Positions 29,894 to 58,541 of a stretch of 64,000 nucleotides of DNA are shown one piece after another. The DNA is taken from contig NZ_BMGT01000002.1 in the NCBI RefSeq assembly GCF_014640335.1, positions 1,240,001-1,304,000 on the forward strand. The letters run 5' to 3'. Positions within the stretch are counted from its first letter, which is position 1. The number at the start of each line of letters is the position of its first letter. Made by a program: the position numbers and the translations under genes. This stretch comes from Edaphobacter dinghuensis. GTDB taxonomy: Bacteria > Acidobacteriota > Terriglobia > Terriglobales > Acidobacteriaceae. Under the pieces are notes generated by a model that did not search any database, was not told the DNA's origin, and saw only the letters and a list, made by a program, of their open reading frames with translations.

Positions 29894-31540
29894 TTGAGGA
29901 TTTTGACTGTTTGCTCGTTTGGGGCTGCGCTACTGGCCCTGGGATGGATGGGTCATGGCTTTGCACAGGCTCGCCGCACCGATATACAGACTACGGCGAC
30001 GCCTATCAAACATGTAGTCGTCATCTTTGGCGAGAACATCTCGTTCGACCACTACTTCGGGACTTATCCTCATGCATTGAATCCTGCCGGCGAACCGGAG
30101 TTTCATGCGAAGCCGGAAACTCCCTCGGTGAACGGACTGACGAAGACGCTACTCGAACACAATCCAAACTTCATCAACACCAAGGTGAACGGCAAGGACG
30201 CGACCGCGCCGTTCCGGCTGTCGCGCGCGCAGGCAGCCACCGCCGATGAGAACCATGACTACACCGCCGAGCAGCGCGCCTTCCACTCCGGGCTTCTCGA
30301 TTCCTTTCCGCGCTACACAGGTATCCTCGGATCGCCGAAGTCGAGAGTGCGACTCGGCAGCGAAAAAGTAGAAGGCGCCAAGGAGTATGCGTTCCAGACC
30401 AAGGGCCTTGTGATGGGCTATTTCGATGGCAACACTGTAACGGCGATGTGGAACTACGCACAACGCTACGCGCTGAACGACAACTCGTACGGCACGACGT
30501 TTGGGCCTTCGACGCTGGGCGCAATTGAATTGATCTCGGGACAGACCAACGGTGTGACCGACAAGATTAACGCCGGCAATACGGTGATCGAGGGCGGTGA
30601 CGGCACGTTCACCGAGATCGGTGATGGCGATCCCATTGGCGATATCTGCTCGTCACCGTCAGGCTCCTTGCTGCACTTCAGCGGCAACAACATCGGCACC
30701 ATGCTCTCGAAGAAAGATGTAACGTGGGGATGGTTCGAAGGCGGCTTCGACCTCACGAAGAAGAATCCCAACGGAACGACGGGTTGCCGCCGCAGCACTT
30801 ATTCCAACGTAGTAAAGGTGACGGACCTCGATTACAGCCCGCATCACGAGCCCTTTCAGTACTACAAAGAGACGGCGAACCTCAAGCATGTAAGACCGAC
30901 CTCAGTGCAGATGATCGGACACAACGGCGATGCGGCGAACCATCAATACGACACGGACGACTTCTTCGATGCGGTAAAGGCTGGGAATTTTCCAGCGGTA
31001 AGTTTTCTGAAGGCTCCGGCTTATCAGGATGGCCATGCGGGTTACTCCGATCCGTTGGATGAGCAGGCATTCGATGTAAAGGTCATCAACTTTCTTCAGC
31101 AGCAATCTGACTGGAAGAGTACGGTAGTAATTCTGGCGTACGACGACTCCGATGGTTGGTATGACCATCAGATGGGCCCGATCGTAAACCAGTCGACGAC
31201 GCGGGCCGATGCGCTGACCGGGCCGGGACAGTGCGGCGATGGCTCGACTGCGTTGCCAGGACCACATACAGCACATGCACAGGGACGCTGCGGCTATGGG
31301 CCGCGGCTACCGCTGCTCGTCGTCTCGCCCTACGCAAAACAGAATTACGTCGACCACAGTCTGACCGACCAGACCTCTGTGCTTCGCTTTATCGAAGATA
31401 ACTGGCTGGGTGGCGAGCGCGTTGGCGGCGGCTCGTTCGACTCGATTGCAGGGCCGATGACGGGGATGTTCGACTTTGCGCATCCTGATGCGCGGCGCTA
31501 TCTCCTCGATGACGCGACGGGAGTTGTGGTGAAGCAGTGA
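29894..31540 (+). CDS. secreted phosphoesterase (phospholipase C / acid phosphatase family)
   Basis: 548 residues from a TTG at 29894, with GGAGG five bases upstream; an ATG at 29889 leads straight to a stop. A signal peptide spans about 1-25. The metal-binding start of the catalytic domain is IKHVVVIFGENISFDHYFGT, which has the E..S.D..FG pattern of the phosphoesterase family (PF04185). Later motifs are VILAYDDSDGWYDHQMGPIV (metal-binding Asp and His) and GYGPRLPLLVVSPYAKQNYV. Family members release phosphate or cleave phospholipid head groups outside the cytoplasm. The stop overlaps the start of the multicopper oxidase gene (GTGA), implying coupled translation. Confidence 0.9.
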   Translation: MRILTVCSFGAALLALGWMGHGFAQARRTDIQTTATPIKHVVVIFGENISFDHYFGTYPHALNPAGEPEFHAKPETPSVNGLTKTLLEHNPNFINTKVNGKDATAPFRLSRAQAATADENHDYTAEQRAFHSGLLDSFPRYTGILGSPKSRVRLGSEKVEGAKEYAFQTKGLVMGYFDGNTVTAMWNYAQRYALNDNSYGTTFGPSTLGAIELISGQTNGVTDKINAGNTVIEGGDGTFTEIGDGDPIGDICSSPSGSLLHFSGNNIGTMLSKKDVTWGWFEGGFDLTKKNPNGTTGCRRSTYSNVVKVTDLDYSPHHEPFQYYKETANLKHVRPTSVQMIGHNGDAANHQYDTDDFFDAVKAGNFPAVSFLKAPAYQDGHAGYSDPLDEQAFDVKVINFLQQQSDWKSTVVILAYDDSDGWYDHQMGPIVNQSTTRADALTGPGQCGDGSTALPGPHTAHAQGRCGYGPRLPLLVVSPYAKQNYVDHSLTDQTSVLRFIEDNWLGGERVGGGSFDSIAGPMTGMFDFAHPDARRYLLDDATGVVVKQ

Positions 31541-33162
31541 CGATTACCCGGAGGAGATTTCTGGAGCAGGCCGGAGTCTTTGCAACCGGCCTGCTGCTGA
31601 CTGAGACCGGCTCTGCGATGGCTCACATGGAAGCCGCGATGAGCGACACCGTGCTGGGGCCGGGAGAGCTGACTCCGTTTGTAGACGCCCTTCCGTTGCC
31701 TCCGGTTGCGAAGAGCACGGGAACGCGGGCAAATCCGGAACGCAAGGACGAACAGATTCCTTATTACAGGATCGCCATGCGCGAGATGCATGTGAAGGTG
31801 CATCGCGATCTGCCTGCAACGCGAGTGTGGGGATTCAACGACAGCTCGCCGGGGCCTGTATTCGAGACGCGCAGCGGAGAGCCGCTCCTTGTGGAATGGG
31901 CGAATGAGCTTCCGCTGAAGCACTTTTTACCAATTGACTACACGCTGCACGGCGCAGGCAAAGATGTTCCCGAGGTACGCAGCGTCGTTCATCTGCATGG
32001 AGGAAGAACACCACCCGAGAGCGACGGATATCCCGAAGACTGGTTTGTGCCGGGAAAATCTGCGGTCAATTTCTATCCCAACCGGCAGGATGCGACGGCG
32101 TTGTTCTATCACGACCATGCGATGGGAATTAATCGCCTGAATGTCTACGCAGGTTTGCAGGGGATGTTCCTGATTCGCGATGCAGTGGAGGACGCGTTGA
32201 ATCTGCCCAGCGGTAAGTATGAGGTGCCTCTGGTGATCTACGACCGCTTTCTGCGCAAAGATGGACAACTCGAGTATCCGGTCTCGCCGATACCGGGCAA
32301 ACCGTGGGTGCCAGAGGTATTCGGCAACGTCGTTCTGGTCAACGGCAAGGCGATGCCGTATCTCGAAGTAGAACCGCGCAAGTACCGGCTGCGAATTCTG
32401 AATGGATCGAATGCACGGTTTTATCGGCTGGCATTTGAGGATGAGCACGAGTTTCACGTGATCGGCTCCGATCAGGGACTGCTCGAAAGCCCTGTAGCGT
32501 TGCAACGGTTGCAGCTTGCTCCGGCAGAACGCGCCGATGTGATTGTGGACTTCAGCAAATATGCGGGCAAGCGAATGCAGCTTGCGAGCGACTCGCTTCC
32601 GGTCATGCAGTTCCGCGTGACTACTCAAGGCGCTCCCGATACAAGCGTATTGCCTGCAAAGCTGCGTGCGGTCGAACGAATCAAAGAGAAGGCCGCAGTC
32701 AAGACGCGCCTGCTGACACTCGATGAGCATCTGAATCTCGCCGATCAGTCCATGGACATGATGCTGAACAATACTCCGTGGCATGCACCGATTACGGAGA
32801 AGCCGGTGATCGATACAACGGAGATCTGGGAGTTTGTGAATCTCACCGAGGACACGCATCCCATTCACATCCATCTGGTGCGATTCCAAATTCTCGATCG
32901 GCAGAGGATCGATACCAATGCGTTCTTCGATAGCAGGTCGCTGGAGTTTATCGGAGATGTGGAACCCGCATCCGGGATTGAAACCGGATGGAAGGACACC
33001 GTACGCGCCGATGCCGGCACACTGACACGGATCATTGTGCCCTTCAAGGGATACACGGGCCGCTACGTGTGGCACTGTCATCTGTTGGAGCACGAGGACA
33101 ACGAGATGATGCGACCGTATGAAATTTTGGCCACAGAACCGCAAAAGCAGGCAAATGATTGA
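31537..33162 (+). CDS. Tat-exported multicopper oxidase, CotA/bilirubin-oxidase-like
   Basis: 541 residues from GTG at 31537 inside the upstream stop. A Tat signal (TRRRFLEQAG) exports the folded, copper-loaded protein. Copper ligands are visible in all four motifs: HLHGG, HDHAMGINRLNVYAG, HPIHIHLVRF and WHCHLLEHEDNEMM, the last including the type-1 Cys and axial Met. The fold has three cupredoxin domains. Family members oxidise phenols, bilirubin or metal ions with O2. Coupling to a secreted phosphoesterase suggests a joint extracellular task, which is inference. The stop codon lies within the putative -35 element of the his promoter. Confidence 0.93.
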   Translation: MTITRRRFLEQAGVFATGLLLTETGSAMAHMEAAMSDTVLGPGELTPFVDALPLPPVAKSTGTRANPERKDEQIPYYRIAMREMHVKVHRDLPATRVWGFNDSSPGPVFETRSGEPLLVEWANELPLKHFLPIDYTLHGAGKDVPEVRSVVHLHGGRTPPESDGYPEDWFVPGKSAVNFYPNRQDATALFYHDHAMGINRLNVYAGLQGMFLIRDAVEDALNLPSGKYEVPLVIYDRFLRKDGQLEYPVSPIPGKPWVPEVFGNVVLVNGKAMPYLEVEPRKYRLRILNGSNARFYRLAFEDEHEFHVIGSDQGLLESPVALQRLQLAPAERADVIVDFSKYAGKRMQLASDSLPVMQFRVTTQGAPDTSVLPAKLRAVERIKEKAAVKTRLLTLDEHLNLADQSMDMMLNNTPWHAPITEKPVIDTTEIWEFVNLTEDTHPIHIHLVRFQILDRQRIDTNAFFDSRSLEFIGDVEPASGIETGWKDTVRADAGTLTRIIVPFKGYTGRYVWHCHLLEHEDNEMMRPYEILATEPQKQAND

Positions 33163-33187
33163 CAAGCGAGATCATCGCAGCTACCTT
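33159..33187 (+). promoter_or_regulatory. putative his operon promoter
   Basis: TTGACA at 33159-33164, 17 bases, then TACCTT at 33182-33187 (three of six matches to TATAAT). The -35 hexamer overlaps the TGA of the multicopper oxidase gene. Predicted transcription would start near 33193-33195, immediately before the leader-peptide ATG. Sequence-only prediction. Confidence 0.4.
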
Positions 33188-33195
33188 TAAAAGCA

Positions 33196-33279
33196 ATGAG
33201 CGTTCGTCTGCAGCATCACGGCCATCACCATCATCATGCGCAAAGCGTGTTGGCGGCTGTGTCCGGTGTGGCGAAGTAA
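33196..33279 (+). CDS. hisL: histidine-rich leader peptide of the his operon
   Basis: A 27-codon frame starting ATG AGC GTT and ending TAA at 33277-33279. It contains seven His codons (33214-33237) in the run QHHGHHHHHA, followed by 13 ordinary codons. It sits directly upstream of a terminator and hisI, as HisL does in enterobacteria (whose peptide also has seven His). Translation speed through the His codons would report charged tRNA-His. There is no Shine-Dalgarno sequence, and the predicted transcript start is within a few bases of the ATG, so leaderless initiation is possible. It is too short for ordinary gene callers and was found by eye. Confidence 0.8.
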   Translation: MSVRLQHHGHHHHHAQSVLAAVSGVAK

Positions 33280-33318
33280 CGAACGCATACTAAGGATTGG
33301 AAAGGCCCGCTAACGCGC
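33245..33318 (+). promoter_or_regulatory. antiterminator pairing of the his attenuator
   Basis: GCGTGTTGGCGG (33245-33256) can pair along all 12 bases with CCGCTAACGCGC (33307-33318), counting two G-U pairs. The 3' arm overlaps the left arm of the terminator (33301-33310), so the two structures exclude each other. The 5' arm begins eight bases after the last His codon. A ribosome stalled on the His codons leaves it free, while one that reads to the stop codon masks it. Confidence 0.7.
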
Positions 33319-33339
33319 ATATCGCGAGCGGGCCTTTTT
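33301..33339 (+). terminator. attenuator terminator upstream of hisI
   Basis: AAAGGCCCGC (33301-33310) pairs with GCGGGCCTTT (33328-33337), with an extra inner CGCG/CGCG pairing and a T run to 33339. It lies between the leader peptide stop and hisI, where constitutive termination would switch off the operon. Confidence 0.85.
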
Positions 33340-33398
33340 GCTGCCCGCTTGCCCGATGGCATGTTGGATGACCGAAGAAAGTGATCAAGGAGATGGCA

Positions 33399-33737
33399 AT
33401 GGAAGCAGTAAAGATCGATTTTGCGAAGATGGACGGCCTGGTCCCGGGCATCGTGCAGGATGCGAAGACGGGCGAGATGCTGATGCTCGGCTTCTTGAAC
33501 GAAGTGAGCTACGCGAAGACGCTGGAGACAGGTTTTGTGACCTTCTGGAGCCGGACGCGCAGCAAGCTTTGGATGAAGGGCGAGACCAGCGGCAACCGGC
33601 TGAAGGTCATCTCCGCCGCAACGGATTGCGACAACGATGCTCTGCTCTTCAAGGTAGAGGTCGAGGGCGATGGTCTGGTCTGTCACGAGGGCACGGTGAG
33701 CTGCTTCACCAAAAATATTGAAACGGAGAAGGCGTAA
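33399..33737 (+). CDS. hisI: phosphoribosyl-AMP cyclohydrolase
   Basis: 112 residues from the ATG at 33399, which has AAGGAG six bases upstream; a GTG at 33381 in frame is less likely. It opens the purine ring of phosphoribosyl-AMP, the third step of histidine synthesis. Typical sequence: [38 protein letters not shown], then the zinc cysteines in [10 protein letters not shown] and CHEGTVSCF. There is no fused or adjacent HisE pyrophosphohydrolase, so that step must be encoded elsewhere. It is the first structural gene after the attenuator; its stop overlaps the hisG start. Confidence 0.96.
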
Positions 33738-34618
33738 TGTCTGGAGCGAAGAAGCTGAAGCTGGGAATTCCCAAGGGCAGTCTGCAGGATGCGACGATTG
33801 CGTTGTTTGAGCGGGCAGGTTGGAGGATCTTCGCCAATGGACGAAGCTACTTCCCTTCCATCGACGATGCCGAGATTGAGTGCATGCTGGTGCGTGCGCA
33901 GGAGATGGCACGATACGTCGAGCACGGCGCGCTCGATGCCGGACTGACCGGCAACGACTGGGTTCTCGAAAACGAGACCGATGTGGAGTACGTCACCAGC
34001 CTCACCTACAGCAAGCAGAGCCGGCAGAAGGTGAAGTGGGTGCTCGCAGTTCCCGAGGACTCTCCCTTCCAGAAACCCGAAGATCTCGCAGGCAAGATCA
34101 TCGCCACCGAGCTGGTCGAGTTCACCAAGCGCTACTTCGCCAACAAGAACATTCCCGTAAAGGTGGAGTTTAGCTGGGGCGCGACTGAAGTGAAGCCGCC
34201 CACGCTGGCCGATGCCATCGTCGAAGTGACCGAGACGGGAAGCTCGTTGCGTGCGAACCGTCTGCGGATCATCGAGACGCTGATGGAAAGTGAGACGCAG
34301 CTCATCGCCAACAAGAATGCGTACAAGGACGACTGGAAGCGCGAGAAGATCGGCAATATCTCTCTTATGCTGAACGCCGCGATTGCCGCCCAGGGCCGCG
34401 TTGGTCTGATGCTCAACGCTCGCAAGGATTCGTTGAAGGCAGTGGTCGGTGTGCTGCCCGCATTGAATTCTCCGACGATCTCGCAGCTCAGCGACGAGGG
34501 ATGGATTGCGCTGAATACGATTCTCGATGAGGCCGAGGTTCGGGATGTGATCCCCAAGCTTAAGGCTGCCGGTGCTACTGGAATCGTGGAGTATCCGTTG
34601 AGCAAGGTTGTTCTGTAA
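33737..34618 (+). CDS. hisG: ATP phosphoribosyltransferase, long form
   Basis: 293 residues. It catalyses the committed first step, joining ATP and [24 protein letters not shown] is the family N-terminus, followed by [14 protein letters not shown] and the PRPP loop in [19 protein letters not shown] (E-TG-S-L). The length and the C-terminal ACT-like regulatory domain (about 220-293, [20 protein letters not shown]) mark the long form, which works as a hexamer without HisZ and is feedback-inhibited by histidine. Starts at the TAATG overlap with hisI. Confidence 0.97.
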
Positions 34619-34631
34619 CGATGGCTTTTCT

Positions 34632-34659
34632 CGTCCGGCTCTCCATCGAGGGCCGGACG
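34632..34659 (+). other. hairpin between hisG and hisD
   Basis: CGTCCGGC / GCCGGACG 8-bp stem with a 12-base loop and no T tract, in the only sizeable gap (61 bases) of the front half of the operon. It may stabilise an mRNA end or affect hisD translation. Confidence 0.5.
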
Positions 34660-34679
34660 CTGGTACTCGGAGTTCATGA

Positions 34680-35939
34680 ATGAAGCTGGTGCGAACATTT
34701 GGACGGAGCAAAGCTGCTGCGGCTGCTCTGATAGAGACGCTGGAGCAACGCGGAGCCTCGAACACAGCGAAGGTAGAGCCGGTAGTGCGGCGGATTCTTG
34801 CAGACGTTCGCAAAGGCGGCGATGCTGCGCTGCGAAAATATGCCGCCAAGTTTGATGGGTTGACGAAGAGACAATCTCTGCGGGTCTCATCTGAAGAGAT
34901 GCAGGCGGCCTGGGATGAGACTGCACCGGAGCTGCAAGCTGCCATGATGGTCGCGCGCGGCAACATTCTTGCGTTTGCCGAGGCGCAGAAACCGTCGGAA
35001 TGGACGATTGCCCCTTCTGACGGTGTAAAGACCGGGCAGATCGTTCGGCCGCTGGGAAGCGTGGGTTGCTATGTACCGGGTGGGCGGTATCCTCTGCCTT
35101 CCACGCTACTGATGACGGTAACTCCAGCACAGGTAGCAGGAGTGGAGCGAATCGTCGTATGTTCGCCTAAGCCTGCGCGGGAGACGATGGCTGCGGCATG
35201 GCTTGCCGGAGTAACTGAGTTTTATCGCGTTGGCGGAGCACAGGCGATCGCCGCGATGGCCTACGGCACCGAGGCGATTACTCGCGTCGACAAGATTGTG
35301 GGGCCGGGAAATTTATTTGTAACCGCCGCCAAGACAATTGTTTCGAACGAGTGCGGCATCGATATGCCCGCCGGCCCGACCGAGATTGTCGTGACCAGCG
35401 AGACCGGAGATGCCTCTGGAATCGCAGCAGACCTCGTAGCACAGGCAGAGCATGATCCAGAGGCTTTGCCTATCCTGATTACAAGCAATGAAGCGCTGGC
35501 AAAGAACGTTGCCGGCGAAGTAAAGCTGCAAGCTGCGAAGAACAAGATTGCGAAACAATCACTGGCAGCCCAGGGAGCAATATTTGTAACTTCAACTGTT
35601 GCAGAGGCACAAGAGCTGACCAACCGCCTTGCTCCTGAGCATCTGACGGTTGATGCAGCGGCAGACCTGAAGTGGGTTCGCAATGCAGGAAGTGTCTTTG
35701 TAGGCGCCTACGCTCCGCAATCAATGGGCGATTACGTCTCGGGACCCAACCATGTGCTGCCAACAGGACGCGTCGGACGTGTACGCGGCGGCTTGAGCGT
35801 CATGGACTTCGTCAAGGTAATCACCGTGCAGGAGTACACGCGCAAAGGTCTACGAAAGATTGGCCCCCACGCTATTGCGCTGGCCGAAGCAGAAGGCCTG
35901 GTTGGTCACGCAGAGAGTGTTCGAGTGAGGATGCGATGA
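34680..35939 (+). CDS. hisD: histidinol dehydrogenase
   Basis: 419 residues. It oxidises histidinol to histidine in two NAD-dependent steps. Family motifs are VGCYVPGGRYPLPSTLLMT, the glycine-rich region VGGAQAIAAMAYGTE, DKIVGPGNLFVTAAK, IDMPAGPTEIVVTSE with DLVAQAEHDPEA (zinc ligands), LAPEHLTVDAA and GPNHVLPTGRVGR. Its position third in the operon is conventional. The ATG overlaps a preceding out-of-frame ATG. The stop codon overlaps hisC (ATGA). Confidence 0.97.
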   Translation: MKLVRTFGRSKAAAAALIETLEQRGASNTAKVEPVVRRILADVRKGGDAALRKYAAKFDGLTKRQSLRVSSEEMQAAWDETAPELQAAMMVARGNILAFAEAQKPSEWTIAPSDGVKTGQIVRPLGSVGCYVPGGRYPLPSTLLMTVTPAQVAGVERIVVCSPKPARETMAAAWLAGVTEFYRVGGAQAIAAMAYGTEAITRVDKIVGPGNLFVTAAKTIVSNECGIDMPAGPTEIVVTSETGDASGIAADLVAQAEHDPEALPILITSNEALAKNVAGEVKLQAAKNKIAKQSLAAQGAIFVTSTVAEAQELTNRLAPEHLTVDAAADLKWVRNAGSVFVGAYAPQSMGDYVSGPNHVLPTGRVGRVRGGLSVMDFVKVITVQEYTRKGLRKIGPHAIALAEAEGLVGHAESVRVRMR

Positions 35940-37066
35940 AGGTTGCTACGGAAGTAAAACCGCGCAGAGCTGTGCTCGAGATGCCGGAGTATCATCCTCC
36001 GCTGGCAGGACGTGACGCACTGCGACTGGACTTCAACGAGAACACCTTTGCACCATCGCCAAAGGTGATGGAACGGCTGCGCGAGATAACAGCAGAAGGA
36101 TTGACCAAATATCCTGAACGCGAGCCGGGAGAGAGGATCGCGGCAAAACACTTTGGACTTAACCCTGACGAAGTATTGCTGACCAATGGCGTGGACGAAG
36201 CGATCCACCTGGTATGCTGCGCGTTTCTCGAAGAGGGCGACGAGGCCCTGATCTGTACGCCCGGCTTCTTTATGTACGACGTCAGCATAATGATGATGAC
36301 TCCCAACCTGCGCAAGGTGCAGGCGGACGAGGCGTTACAGTTCCCCTTTGAAAAATTTCTCGCCGCAATTACCGAGCGGACAAAGCTGATCATTGTCTCT
36401 TCGCCAAATAATCCAACAGGCGCTGTCGTAAGCCGGGAGCATCTGCTTGCAATCGCTAAGGCAGCCCCTCAAGCCGTGCTGATGGTCGATGAGGCTTACT
36501 ACCACTTCCACGGCGAGACGACGATAGGCGACCTACGCGCTGTGCCGAACCTGCTTGTAGCGCGGACGTTCTCGAAGGCTTATGGGCTGGCTAATCTTCG
36601 CATTGGAATGCTGGCAGGCAACACGGCGCTAATGAAGTATGTGCGCAAGGTCAGCTCGCCTTACAACGTGAATGGCGTGGCGCTCGATTGCCTGACTGTG
36701 GCACTAGCCGATGAGGACTATCTTGCATGGTACGTCGAGCAGGTACGCGTTGGGCGCGATCGCATGATGCGCGGCCTCGATGAGTTGGGAGTTCCCTATT
36801 TTTCAAGCCACGCGAACTTCGTACTGATGAAGATCGGGCCGAAGCATAAGGAGCTGGTTACAGCGATGCGCAGCCACGGCATCCTGCTGCGCGATCGTTC
36901 CGCCGATCCGGGGTGCAATGGCTTTGTGCGCATCACGATTGGAATCGAAGAGCACGTCCGGCTTGGATTGGCGGCGCTGCGGTCGTCGCTTGAAGAGATT
37001 GGATGGAAGCCCACGGATGTGCGAACAGTACAGCAGAGCAGCGAAGGCGAAAGGGAGTTTGAGTAA
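35936..37066 (+). CDS. hisC: histidinol-phosphate aminotransferase
   Basis: 376 residues from the ATG at 35936 that overlaps the hisD stop; the frame is open further upstream within hisD but that part is not coding. It is a PLP-dependent class I/II aminotransferase. It shows [47 protein letters not shown] and [18 protein letters not shown], with the Schiff-base Lys about 214. It converts imidazole-acetol phosphate to histidinol phosphate. No histidinol phosphatase gene follows. Confidence 0.97.
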
Positions 37067-37674
37067 TGGCTAAGAGTTTAAGCAAGGTTCGAATAGGAAC
37101 GGTGAAGCGCGACACGACAGAGACGCAGATTGCGCTGAAGCTCGTCGTCGACGGGCAAGGCGTCTATAAAGTCTCGACTGGAATACGCTTCTTCGATCAC
37201 ATGCTCGAACTGTTTACGCGGCATGGCGGCTTCGATCTCACGCTGAAGTGCACCGGCGATCTGGATGTCGACCAGCACCACACTGTCGAGGACGTCGGCA
37301 TTGCATTGGGCGAAGCCTTCAATAAGGCTCTCGGCGATAAGAAGGGCATCATGCGCGCCGGATACTTTGTAATGGCGATGGACGAGACACTCGCGGTTGC
37401 CGCTGTCGACCTTAGCGGCCGTGTCGCTTACGTCGTCGACGACAAGGTGAAGGTGCGGCTGGTCGGCGACTTCCAGAGCGAGTTGCTGGCAGACTTCTTC
37501 GACGGCTTTGCACGCGGCGCCAAGGCAAATGTCCACGTCAAGACAATGTACGGCCGCTCGAACCATCACAAGATCGAGGCAATCTTCAAAGCATTCGCAC
37601 GAGCACTGCGTGGAGCCTGCTCACGCGACGAGCGCATGCGCGAGATGCTGCCTTCAACAAAGGGACTGCTGTGA
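37066..37674 (+). CDS. hisB: imidazoleglycerol-phosphate dehydratase
   Basis: 202 residues, monofunctional (no fused phosphatase). Metal-binding motifs [17 protein letters not shown] and [20 protein letters not shown] are intact, as are [16 protein letters not shown] and [20 protein letters not shown]. The enzyme removes water from imidazoleglycerol phosphate. It starts at the last base of hisC's stop region (TAATG overlap) and overlaps the hisH start by four bases. Confidence 0.97.
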
Positions 37675-38279
37675 TCGCTGTCATTGATTACAAAGCGGGA
37701 AATCTTACCAGTGTGGTGAAGGCGCTGACATATCTTGGCGCTGAAACGCAGGTGACTCAAGATCCCAAAGTGGTGCGTTCTGCATCGAAGGTTGTGTTGC
37801 CGGGCGTAGGACATTTCCAGGCCACGCAGTTGCTGACCGATCTCGGACTGACCGAAGCTGTGCGCGAGAGTGTAGCAAAGGGCACATGGTTCCTTGGAGT
37901 TTGCGTTGGGCTGCAATGGCTGTTTGAAGGCTCGACCGAAGCGCCTGATGTGGCCGGTCTCGGACATTTCGCCGGCATGTGCGAGCGCTTCCCTGCTTCG
38001 TTCGAAGGCAGTGAGTTGAAGTCACCGCACGTAGGCTGGAATTCACTCGAGGACGTGCGGCAGGACTCGAAGCTACTGCGCGGCGTGCAGGTTAGAGGGT
38101 TTGTCTATTACACCCACTCCTGGCGTGCGCCTGTAGTAAATAGCACCGCTGCAGTTACAAGTTATGGCGGGCCTTTCACAGGCGCGGTAGAGCGTGACAA
38201 CGTCATGGGTGTGCAGTTTCATCCAGAAAAGTCGAGCAGCGTGGGCTTACAGGTTTTGAAGAACTTCGTGGAGCTATAG
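37671..38279 (+). CDS. hisH: imidazole glycerol phosphate synthase, glutaminase subunit
   Basis: 202 residues from GTG at 37671 (GTGA overlap with hisB). It hydrolyses glutamine and channels ammonia to HisF. The oxyanion/nucleophile segment is [16 protein letters not shown] with Cys about 78. The canonical sequence is G[IV]C[LV]G[ML]Q, so this is close. [10 protein letters not shown] supplies the catalytic His and Glu. VLPGVGHFQ is the substrate-loop motif. Its partner hisF is separated from it by a small lipoyl-like gene. Confidence 0.96.
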
Positions 38280-38281
38280 CC

Positions 38282-38563
38282 ATGCCATTTATCTATGAGT
38301 TGAAGATCGCAGCCAATGAGCCTTCTTACACCTTCGTGCAGCAGTTGGTACCCGCCGGATCGTTGGTAGGCACAGGGCAAGCTGTATGCACTGTGACCGA
38401 TGGCGCAATGGACTTCCACGTGCCCGCACCGAAACAGGGGCTGCTTGTGGAGTGGTTCGTCGAACATGGGGCCGTGATTGAGAACATGGATTCGCTGGCC
38501 CGCATCGTCTGCGAAGGCACTGAGGTTGTAGTTCCGGCGGCTGTGCCGGTGAGGTTGGGATAG
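38282..38563 (+). CDS. small biotinyl/lipoyl-fold protein lacking the attachment lysine
   Basis: 93 residues between hisH and hisF. Shine-Dalgarno GGAG lies eight bases upstream of the ATG. The sequence reads as a single lipoyl/biotinyl domain: two half-barrels joined by a hairpin, with VQQLVPAGSLVGTGQAVCTV in the first half and VPAPKQGLLVEWFVEHGAVI in the second, which match 'V.EGD.V..GD.L..I' and '.APADGVV.EI.V.EGD.V'. Where attachment domains carry ETDKA or EAMKM, this has TDGAMD (39-44). The only lysines are at about 8 and 51, so it probably cannot be lipoylated or biotinylated in the usual way. The role in histidine synthesis is unknown. Confidence 0.75.
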   Translation: MPFIYELKIAANEPSYTFVQQLVPAGSLVGTGQAVCTVTDGAMDFHVPAPKQGLLVEWFVEHGAVIENMDSLARIVCEGTEVVVPAAVPVRLG

Positions 38564-39334
38564 ATGCTGACGAAACGAATTATTGCCTGCCTCGATGTAC
38601 GCGGCGGCCGCGTGGTGAAGGGTATTCAGTTTGTAGACATCATCGACGCCGGAGACCCGGCAGAGTTGGCACATCGCCATGCGGCGGCGGGTGCAGACGA
38701 GATTGTGCTGCTCGACATTACAGCTACGCATGAAGGACGCGGGACCCTGCTCGATACTGTGAAGCGAACAGCTGCATCACTATTTGTTCCGTTTACTGTC
38801 GGCGGCGGCATTCGCAGTGCAGAAGATGCGGCGGCGGTCTTCGATGCGGGTGCCGACAAGGTGAGCATCAACTCCTCTGCTATTGCCCGGCCGGAGTTGA
38901 TCGGCGAGATCGGCGGCAGCTTCGGAGCGCAGGCAGTCATCGTAGCCATCGATGCTCGTCGCGGCACGGCAGGAGTAGAAGACGCAGAAGTTTATGTGAG
39001 TGGTGGCCGAAAGCCCACAGGTCGAAAGGTTGTGGATTGGGCTCGCGAGGCTGAGCAACGCGGTGCGGGAGAGATTCTGTTGACCAGCATGGACACTGAT
39101 GGCATGCGTAATGGATTCGATTGCGAACTGACTGCGCGCGTAAGCGAAGCAGTGCAGATTCCGGTGATTGCCTCAGGTGGCGCAGGCTCGGCAGCCCACT
39201 TTGCCGAGGTCTTCGGCAGAGGCAAAGCCGACGCTGCCTTAGCTGCCAGCATCTTTCATTTTGGAGTTACTGATTCACGAGAGTTGAAAGCAGAGTTGCA
39301 ACAAGCCGGAGTCTCTGTGCGGCTGCCCTGCTAA
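38564..39334 (+). CDS. hisF: imidazole glycerol phosphate synthase, cyclase subunit
   Basis: 256 residues. A (beta/alpha)8 barrel that makes IGP and AICAR from PRFAR and ammonia. [20 protein letters not shown] holds the catalytic Asp (about 11), and [19 protein letters not shown] the second Asp (about 130-180 region). [20 protein letters not shown] and VIASGGAG are the phosphate-binding loops. The ATG directly abuts the stop of the lipoyl-like gene. Confidence 0.97.
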
Positions 39335-39384
39335 AAGCTGAACAGTGATGACACCTATTTAGAACAAACAGCAGTAAGTGCAAC

Positions 39385-39426
39385 CACAGGTCCTTTGACT
39401 CGCTCTTCGCGCTCGGATGACATTTT
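39385..39426. repeat. dispersed intergenic repeat, copy 3, inside the his operon
   Basis: CACAGGTCCTTTGACTCGC on the left and GCTCGGATGACATTTT on the right, in the hisF-hisA gap. Same outer words as the copy at 10384-10445. Confidence 0.55.
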
Positions 39427-39446
39427 AATAAGGGGATGAAAATCGC

Positions 39447-40121
39447 ATGTTGATACCTTCGATTGATTTGATGGGCGGTCGTATTGTCCAGTTGGTGCAG
39501 GGCGAAAAGTTGAAGCTCGCCTTCGATGACTTTGAGTACTGGATCGAGCGCTTCTCGAAGTATCCCGTAGTGCAGTTGATCGACCTCGACGCTGCGATGC
39601 GGCAAGGAAATAATCGTGAGCTGATCGAGATGATCTGCAAGCGACTGCCCTGCCAGGTGGGTGGCGGCTTGAAGACCGCTGAAGATGGTCAGGCACTGCT
39701 CGATGCTGGCGCAAAGCGAGTGATCTACGGTTCAAGCCTGTTTGGCGCGTCGGGAGTCAACAAAGAGTTCGCCGCCGGGCTAAAGAAAGCTTTGGGTGAA
39801 GATGCTCTCGTATTCAGCGTGGACACTAAAGGCGGCAAGGTTGCCGTGAAGGGCTGGAAGGACTCCGTCGATCTAACGCCGGAAGAAGCAGTGACGTGGC
39901 TCGAGGATTACTGCGCTGCATTCCTCTACACGCACGTCGATACCGAAGGAACGATGACGGGCTTCCCCATGGACGTCGCCGCCGTACTGCGCGCCACAAC
40001 AGGCCGCCAGCTCATCGTCGCCGGTGGCATCAAGGAGCGCGCTGAAGTCGACGCTCTCGATGCAATGGGCGTCGATGCCGTAGCAGGCATGGCGGTGTAC
40101 TCAGGCGCGATGGAAGCATAG
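39447..40121 (+). CDS. hisA: phosphoribosylformimino-5-aminoimidazole carboxamide ribotide isomerase (HisA type)
   Basis: 224 residues, ATG at 39447 in the gap after the repeat. It isomerises ProFAR to PRFAR in a (beta/alpha)8 barrel. The first catalytic Asp is in LIPSIDLMGGRIVQLVQGE (about 6), and VFSVDTKGGKVAVKGWKDSV holds the second. The phosphate loop is VGGGLKTAEDG and a second is VAGGIKERAEV. The region THVDTEGTMTGFPMD replaces the usual bacterial 'T.I.RDGT..G.N', and recalls the DVEG of eukaryotic HIS6. It is shorter than typical HisA (about 240-245). Last his gene; the Tat lactonase follows after 35 bases. Confidence 0.9.
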   Translation: MLIPSIDLMGGRIVQLVQGEKLKLAFDDFEYWIERFSKYPVVQLIDLDAAMRQGNNRELIEMICKRLPCQVGGGLKTAEDGQALLDAGAKRVIYGSSLFGASGVNKEFAAGLKKALGEDALVFSVDTKGGKVAVKGWKDSVDLTPEEAVTWLEDYCAAFLYTHVDTEGTMTGFPMDVAAVLRATTGRQLIVAGGIKERAEVDALDAMGVDAVAGMAVYSGAMEA

Positions 40122-58464: not shown

Positions 58465-58541
58465 GCACCCGTAGCTCAGCTGGATAGAGCGGCAGCCTCC
58501 GAAGCTGTAGGTCAGAAGTTCGAATCTTCTCGGGTGCACCA
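58465..58541 (+). tRNA. tRNA-Arg (anticodon CCG)
   Basis: Cloverleaf from GCACCCG (58465-58471) to CGGGTGC (58531-58537) plus ACCA. D arm GCTC...GAGC; anticodon stem GCAGC/GCTGT with loop CTCCGAA giving anticodon CCG (reads CGG, arginine); T arm AGAAG-TTCGAAT-CTTCT. The 3' CCA is encoded. Confidence 0.96.

Follow-up and report, generated by a model that had tools for sequence, protein, structure and literature searches.

The analysed stretch of Edaphobacter DNA, 64,000 nt long and here called the window, contains a set of histidine biosynthesis genes downstream of a multicopper oxidase gene:

31537-33165: multicopper oxidase gene (NCBIfam multicopper models, matched below their cut-offs)
33399-33737, forward strand: hisI, the first structural gene (NCBIfam phosphoribosyl-AMP cyclohydrolase, over the cut-off; the ORF is listed from 33381)
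33737-34618, forward strand: hisG (profile match)
34680-35939, forward strand: hisD (profile match)
35672-37066, forward strand: hisC frame (profile match from about 35963)
37066-37674, forward strand: hisB (profile match)
37671-38279, forward strand: hisH (profile match)
38564-39334, forward strand: hisF (profile match)
39447-40121, forward strand: hisA-like gene (profile match below the curated cut-off)

The most plausible start of hisI is the ATG at 33399, with the Shine-Dalgarno box AAGGAG at 33387-33392. We infer that all his genes from hisI to the hisA-like gene (33399-40121) are co-transcribed. The only Rfam match at the gathering level in the window is a tRNA gene at 58465-58538.

The region upstream of hisI contains the following elements of a candidate attenuator:

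33159-33187, forward strand: predicted promoter, spotted by eye (TTGACA at 33159-33164, a 17-nt spacer, -10-like TACCTT at 33182-33187)
33196-33279, forward strand: leader ORF of 27 amino acids and a stop codon, predicted to be leaderless and conserved in relatives
33214-33237, forward strand: candidate regulatory His codons, seven of eight codons, interrupted by one Gly codon
33245-33256, forward strand: arm 2, the 5' arm of the antiterminator, within the leader ORF (core 33250-33256)
33307-33318, forward strand: arm 3, the 3' arm of the antiterminator, overlapping the 5' arm of the terminator (pairing, covariation)
33302-33339, forward strand: intrinsic terminator (arm 3:arm 4) with a U tract (folding, covariation)

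The translation of the leader frame (33196-33279) is MSVRLQHHGHHHHHAQSVLAAVSGVAK, followed by the stop codon. An earlier note on this DNA had described a 27-codon frame with seven His codons at 33214-33237, and these are present in the translation. The 12-bp alternative pairing that it saw, with a 3' arm overlapping the 5' arm of the terminator, is exact: all pairs between 33245-33256 and 33307-33318 are standard, ten of them Watson-Crick and two wobble (U-G 33248:33315 and G-U 33252:33311). The terminator before hisI, given there as 33301-33339, is placed by folding at 33302-33339, with a GC-rich hairpin at 33302-33336 and the U tract running to 33339. Folding of the RNA, proposed as a check, yielded a leader more stable than most shuffled sequences (150 nt, z = -2.87; 3 of 200 shuffles fold as well).

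The upstream regions of hisI were then compared among relatives. HisI was found in 111 of the 150 genomes of the family, and 104 upstream regions were read. To these were added 80 named loci, partly overlapping with the 104, from Edaphobacter, Granulicella, Terriglobus, Terracidiphilus, Silvibacterium and MAGs. A His-rich leader frame (at least four His in nine codons) is present upstream of hisI in 183 of these 184 loci; in the only exception, L055, just 84 nt can be read upstream of hisI. The density of His codons in the family leaders is five to eight per nine codons. The window has one frame with at least seven His in eight codons, and 60 dinucleotide shuffles of it contain no such frame. 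The codon run expected of ribosome-mediated amino acid attenuators is thus seen at all of these loci but one and is absent from the shuffled windows. Merging of identical leader-to-hisI regions reduced the 183 leaders to 174 distinct ones.

The box TTGACA is observed within 60 nt upstream of the leader ATG in full in 136 of the 174 distinct upstream regions and with at least five of six matches in 173, a level reached by 22% of base shuffles (773 of 3480). It lies at a nearly fixed distance from the ATG, and when the regions are aligned on this box alone, the pattern TA(A)--T(T) emerges 17-18 nt downstream. In 118 of 170 regions, the distance between the end of the -10 hexamer with the best score and the leader ATG is 8-10 nt. 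If transcription starts at the usual distance past the -10 box, the 5' untranslated region would be about 0-4 nt long; in the window the promoter boxes predict a start at about 33194-33196, that is, about at the leader ATG. Shine-Dalgarno-like four-mers upstream of the leader ATG are found in only four of the 174 regions (mean in shuffles 8.5), and at the start of hisI, where the rule applied was looser, a Shine-Dalgarno box is found in 132 of 174. Thus the predicted promoter directly precedes the start codon with no Shine-Dalgarno box between them, and judged from sequence the leader frame looks leaderless. A simple consensus scan of the window called neither the promoter nor the terminator at the leader, probably because the terminator has a 2-nt bulge and the -10 box is weak. 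Leaderless genes are predicted to make up 9.7-19.4% of the genes in three genomes of Acidobacteria (PMC3160421).

A scan of the same genome for exact TTGACA, a -10 box and ATG found 12 places, compared with two for a control with the reversed pattern. Judged by eye, only the his leader among the 12 has a dense run of codons for one amino acid, apart from the Cys-rich L288. The latter (C2:695434-695475 and downstream) is a leaderless-looking frame of 27 codons ending in RSCCRCY, upstream of a gene that by eye resembles outer membrane receptors, and is possibly a cysteine leader.

A terminator hairpin of -12 kcal/mol or lower before a T-rich tract precedes hisI, the first structural gene, in 173 of the 174 distinct leaders, L062 being the exception. 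Its median energy is -22.5 kcal/mol and it starts about 25 nt past the stop codon. L062 was omitted from the antiterminator tests, leaving 173 leaders, of which 145 remained at less than 90% identity and 143 after exclusion of two leaders longer than 165 nt. The alignment used 127 of these. The other 16 were dropped by hand (L031, L033, L137, L151-L155, L160, L162, L163, L166, L171, L173, L179, L181); L031 and L033 are divergent, and dropping them may slightly favour the attenuator reading. For both helices the shuffle statistics given below ignore the relatedness of the leaders.

In this alignment, 78.0% of the cells of the terminator helix are paired, compared with at most 53.0% when the 3' partner is slid, and 84 cells at nine pairs are changed on both sides (mean in shuffles 39.0). 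The inner part of the helix is paired in only 50.5% of cells across relatives. In the antiterminator, 87.8% of cells are paired and the covariation score is 0.225, compared with at most 46.3% and 0.073 when slid. Changes on both sides affect 43 cells at six pairs (mean in shuffles 17.2). The number of such cells, the percentage paired and the covariation score were equalled by none of 500 shuffles; the other two of the five measures, double-change pairs (46 of 500) and further pair types (64 of 500), are within the reach of shuffles. For example, one pair is U-A in 72 leaders and C-G in 20, the next is C-G in 93 and U-A in 10, and a third is G-U in 55, G-C in 50 and A-U in 16. The ORF base of the third pair falls on a third codon position (the codon is TTG in the window; relatives have TCG or TCA), which lets the RNA vary there while the peptide stays the same.

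The ORF part pairs with the terminator arm of its own locus at a median of -23.0 kcal/mol, with the arms of other loci at -20.2 kcal/mol, and when shuffled at -16.8 kcal/mol. Leader by leader, the pairing of arms 2 and 3 passes a 5% shuffle test in 114 of 173 cases and fails in 59. The distance from the first base of the last His codon to the start of the arm 2 core is 15 nt (the median and both quartiles; range 7-33). The antiterminator shares the 5' arm of the terminator, and the two helices are mutually exclusive. The alignment asked for in the earlier note therefore bears it out on both counts, the His codon run being kept in the related loci and compensatory changes being seen in both helices, and its main claim, a complete histidine attenuator with leader peptide, antiterminator and terminator ahead of an acidobacterial his operon, is supported by this conservation and covariation.

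Two other motifs were seen in the leaders. In Edaphobacter- and Granulicella-type leaders AAGGAT or CAGGAT recurs just upstream of the terminator (33292-33297 in the window) and could lengthen the antiterminator by pairing with GTCC inside the ORF. In Terracidiphilus-type leaders (L018, L019, L133, L134, L136) TGGCC close to the stop codon is complementary to a downstream GGCCA, and the two can form a small extra hairpin between arms 2 and 3.

The region is very probably a ribosome-mediated, histidine-sensing transcription attenuator of the hisI-G-D-C-B-H-F-A operon. The proposed mechanism is as follows. Transcription would begin at or beside the leader AUG, and a ribosome would load on the leaderless end. 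When charged tRNA-His is scarce, the ribosome would stall in the His run. From its footprint, the front edge of a stalled ribosome is expected about where the arm 2 core begins; the core, just past this edge, could then pair with arm 3 once the latter emerges. This pairing, whose arms are supported by covariation, would block the terminator and the his genes would be transcribed. When histidine is ample, the ribosome would pass the His run. Where the stop codon is near, as in some lineages, it would mask arm 2 at the stop; in Edaphobacter it would probably leave, and arm 2 would fold back on the upstream leader RNA. In either case arm 3 would be free for arm 4, and RNA polymerase would terminate upstream of hisI.

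The ribosome was modelled with an assumed footprint of -17/+13 nt on a transcript cut in the terminator loop. Over the 127 leaders, the mean probability of the arm 2:arm 3 pairing, P(2:3), is 0.83 with the ribosome at the first His codon, 0.84 at the third and 0.60 at the last, compared with 0.52 without a ribosome and 0.44 with the ribosome at the stop codon. The last value depends on the position of the stop: it is 0.00 in the 41 leaders with the stop 6-13 nt past the arm 2 core and 0.64-0.66 in the 86 with the stop farther away. With one fixed footprint, the on/off contrast exceeds 0.3 in 77 of the 127 leaders and is reversed in none. In the window leader the stop codon is 21 nt past the core, and P(2:3) at the stop is 0.91, the same as in the His-stalled state, compared with 0.29 without a ribosome. 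Thus the model agrees with the first half of the classic switch of the earlier note, as the modelled His-stalled ribosome leaves the antiterminator arm free; however, a ribosome at the stop codon should not cover this arm in the window leader, and the off state there probably needs release of the ribosome. Masking at the stop fits the 41 leaders of other lineages.

Equilibrium folding of the full-length leaders shows hardly any switch: P(3:4) is 0.78-0.85 whatever the state, and the window leader has 0.69 throughout. The model thus depends on the arm 2:arm 3 pairing forming first. In folds restricted to the ORF, arm 2 pairs for the most part with upstream sequence (mean 0.71). The resulting arm 1:arm 2 hairpin, which would provide the off state in Edaphobacter, is weakly supported as a conserved helix: it has a median of -12.5 kcal/mol, compared with -11.6 kcal/mol in shuffles, and is significant (p at most 0.05) in 17 of the 127 leaders, with p = 0.95 for the window leader. 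RNAalifold recovered six terminator pairs from the leader alignment A1 and no 5' hairpin. The 5' hairpin was thus rejected as a conserved helix and is retained only as a part that is probable and varies among lineages. In individual leaders it looks convincing by eye (L086, L095, and L103 with a matching double change).

Of 150 genomes of the order, 124 have a match to R1, a covariance model of the leader, at E at most 1e-6; five of these belong to another family, counted by the R1 match alone, irrespective of hisI. Each of the 124 has exactly one such match, which rules out a second strong copy. At E at most 0.1 the genome of the window has three matches. HisI was missing in 39 family genomes, and 20 of these were examined further. 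None of the 20 has hisI or hisG, and none has a genuine leader copy. The single R1 match among them (G007, E 1.2e-5) is false, as it adjoins a frame that by eye resembles ribonuclease E/G and has no His run. Weak R1 matches are thus unreliable, and outside the family only those beside hisI were counted. Genomes lacking HisI and HisG are up to 100% complete, and some belong to genera in which other genomes have HisI (G116 versus G064 and G140; G023 versus G090). Repeated loss of histidine synthesis in the family is probable.

Three other explanations of the region can be weighed against this pattern. The oxidase frame ends at 33162, close upstream of the leader, and the hairpin might be the terminator of that gene, with the His frame being incidental or encoding a metal-binding peptide linked to the oxidase; metal binding is possible for His-rich peptides. 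However, in all 63 named loci whose sequence extends 3 kb in both directions hisG is found within 3 kb, and in none of them is there an oxidase homologue (tblastn, E at most 1e-10) within this distance, and on these grounds the link to the oxidase was rejected. Moreover, the His frame of relatives has a promoter-like box on one side and the terminator on the other, arm 2 shows covariation with the terminator arm, and the 20 examined genomes without hisI and hisG have no genuine copy of the leader. This explanation is very improbable.

Slightly better placed, and still with little probability, is a His-codon leader that acts mainly via translation or Rho, with the hairpin being secondary. Other leader ORF systems may do so, such as the mycobacterial cys leaders described without obvious terminators (PMC1262725). 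Against this, the hairpin and the T-rich tract are present in all leaders but one, and hisI has its own Shine-Dalgarno box well downstream of the hairpin, as do most relatives by the loose rule. It is hardly conceivable that the element senses a ligand or a protein rather than the ribosome, as a T-box, a riboswitch or a DnaA-dependent switch would, although histidine T-boxes are known in Firmicutes and Actinobacteria (PMC9413887) and a DnaA-dependent his switch has been suggested for E. coli (PMC10989985). No riboswitch or T-box family reaches the gathering score in the window, and none is among the five weak matches of a permissive Rfam scan of 33100-33420; membership in the T-box class was rejected accordingly. 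The best of the five is Thr_leader, itself an attenuator family, with 19.3 bits compared with the gathering score of 55. Sensing of a ligand or a protein would also leave the conserved His codons unexplained. The ribosome-mediated attenuator accounts for them, and the region holds a real and conserved histidine attenuator that is almost certainly functional.

Candidate leaders were also found outside the family. In a search of 297 genomes of the phylum, R1 matches at E at most 1e-5 lie beside hisI in 15 genomes of five other families (f2, f23, f28, f45 and f74), and one further genome, G224, has such a match away from hisI. A search for short frames with at least four His in nine codons, made without the model, found one before hisI at 22 of 42 loci outside the family; this is no rate for the phylum, as the loci were picked by hand to cover many families, closest HisI first. 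At the other 20 loci no His-rich frame was found in the 1.0-1.7 kb before hisI, and f20, f22 and f24 are among the families in which no leader was seen there. A terminator is present in 20 of the 22 leaders; 11 of the 20 pass the 5% shuffle test for the arm 2:arm 3 pairing. Exact TTGACA ends 31-33 nt before the ATG in eight of the 22.

If this interpretation is correct, it would add a large soil phylum to those with ribosome-mediated histidine attenuation; one survey reports almost no predicted attenuators with associated functions in this phylum (PMC2965389). The phylum and the predicted leaderless start are unusual for such an attenuator; the principle is ordinary. The terminated RNA of about 140 nt would be a tiny leaderless mRNA, and the predicted design raises the question of whether a ribosome on a bare 5' end can keep pace with RNA polymerase. 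It would be a good candidate for a new RNA family because it has one strong copy per genome, is present in the family wherever the region upstream of hisI can be read, and shows natural covariation. A broader scenario is unlikely: the leaderless attenuator would have spread through much of Acidobacteriota after arising apart from HisL, and the RNA or the His-rich peptide would also act in trans, as described for rnTrpL and peTrpL of S. meliloti (PMC7298713).

Among the matches listed in the open-access literature, judged by title and the start of the abstract, there is no histidine attenuator from Acidobacteria, and an earlier prediction is possible; the words histidine and acidobacter are missing from the main text of a survey of structured RNAs (PMC8632094). 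The Rfam family His_leader (RF00514) has no match at the gathering score in the window, at E at most 5 in 33100-33420, or at E at most 0.001 in the whole genome, and the E. coli control matches. Membership in this family was thus rejected; the missing match does not prove an origin independent of HisL. The candidate attenuator resembles the gammaproteobacterial hisL in having a leader ORF with His codons, an intrinsic terminator and a competing antiterminator before the his operon. However, the E. coli operon begins with hisG and the Edaphobacter operon with hisI, the leader ORF is predicted to be leaderless, and arm 2 lies inside the ORF, its core mostly at a distance of 15 nt from the last His codon.

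Histidine attenuators of Firmicutes have been described in the Bacillus cereus group, Peptostreptococcaceae/Lutispora and Erysipelotrichales (PMC9413887), and leaders of hisS and hisZ are also reported there (PMC2965389); RF00514 is stated to have no occurrence in Firmicutes (PMC9413887). They are similar in combining a lineage-specific His leader peptide with a terminator and an antiterminator, and differ in having, as described, three to five consecutive His codons, compared with five to eight in nine codons in Acidobacteriaceae. The word leaderless is absent from the paper on these attenuators (PMC9413887).

Leader ORFs that open the transcript directly, or that have no ribosome binding site, have precedents. 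The trpL leader of Sinorhizobium meliloti is one, and it is described as leaderless (PMC7298713). These precedents differ from the Edaphobacter leader, where the leaderless start is a prediction from sequence, in that trpL, the poly-Cys leaders and the ilvB leader concern other amino acids and other phyla. Mycobacteria reportedly have leaderless poly-Cys ORFs, and the ilvB leader of C. glutamicum is said to have no ribosome binding site.
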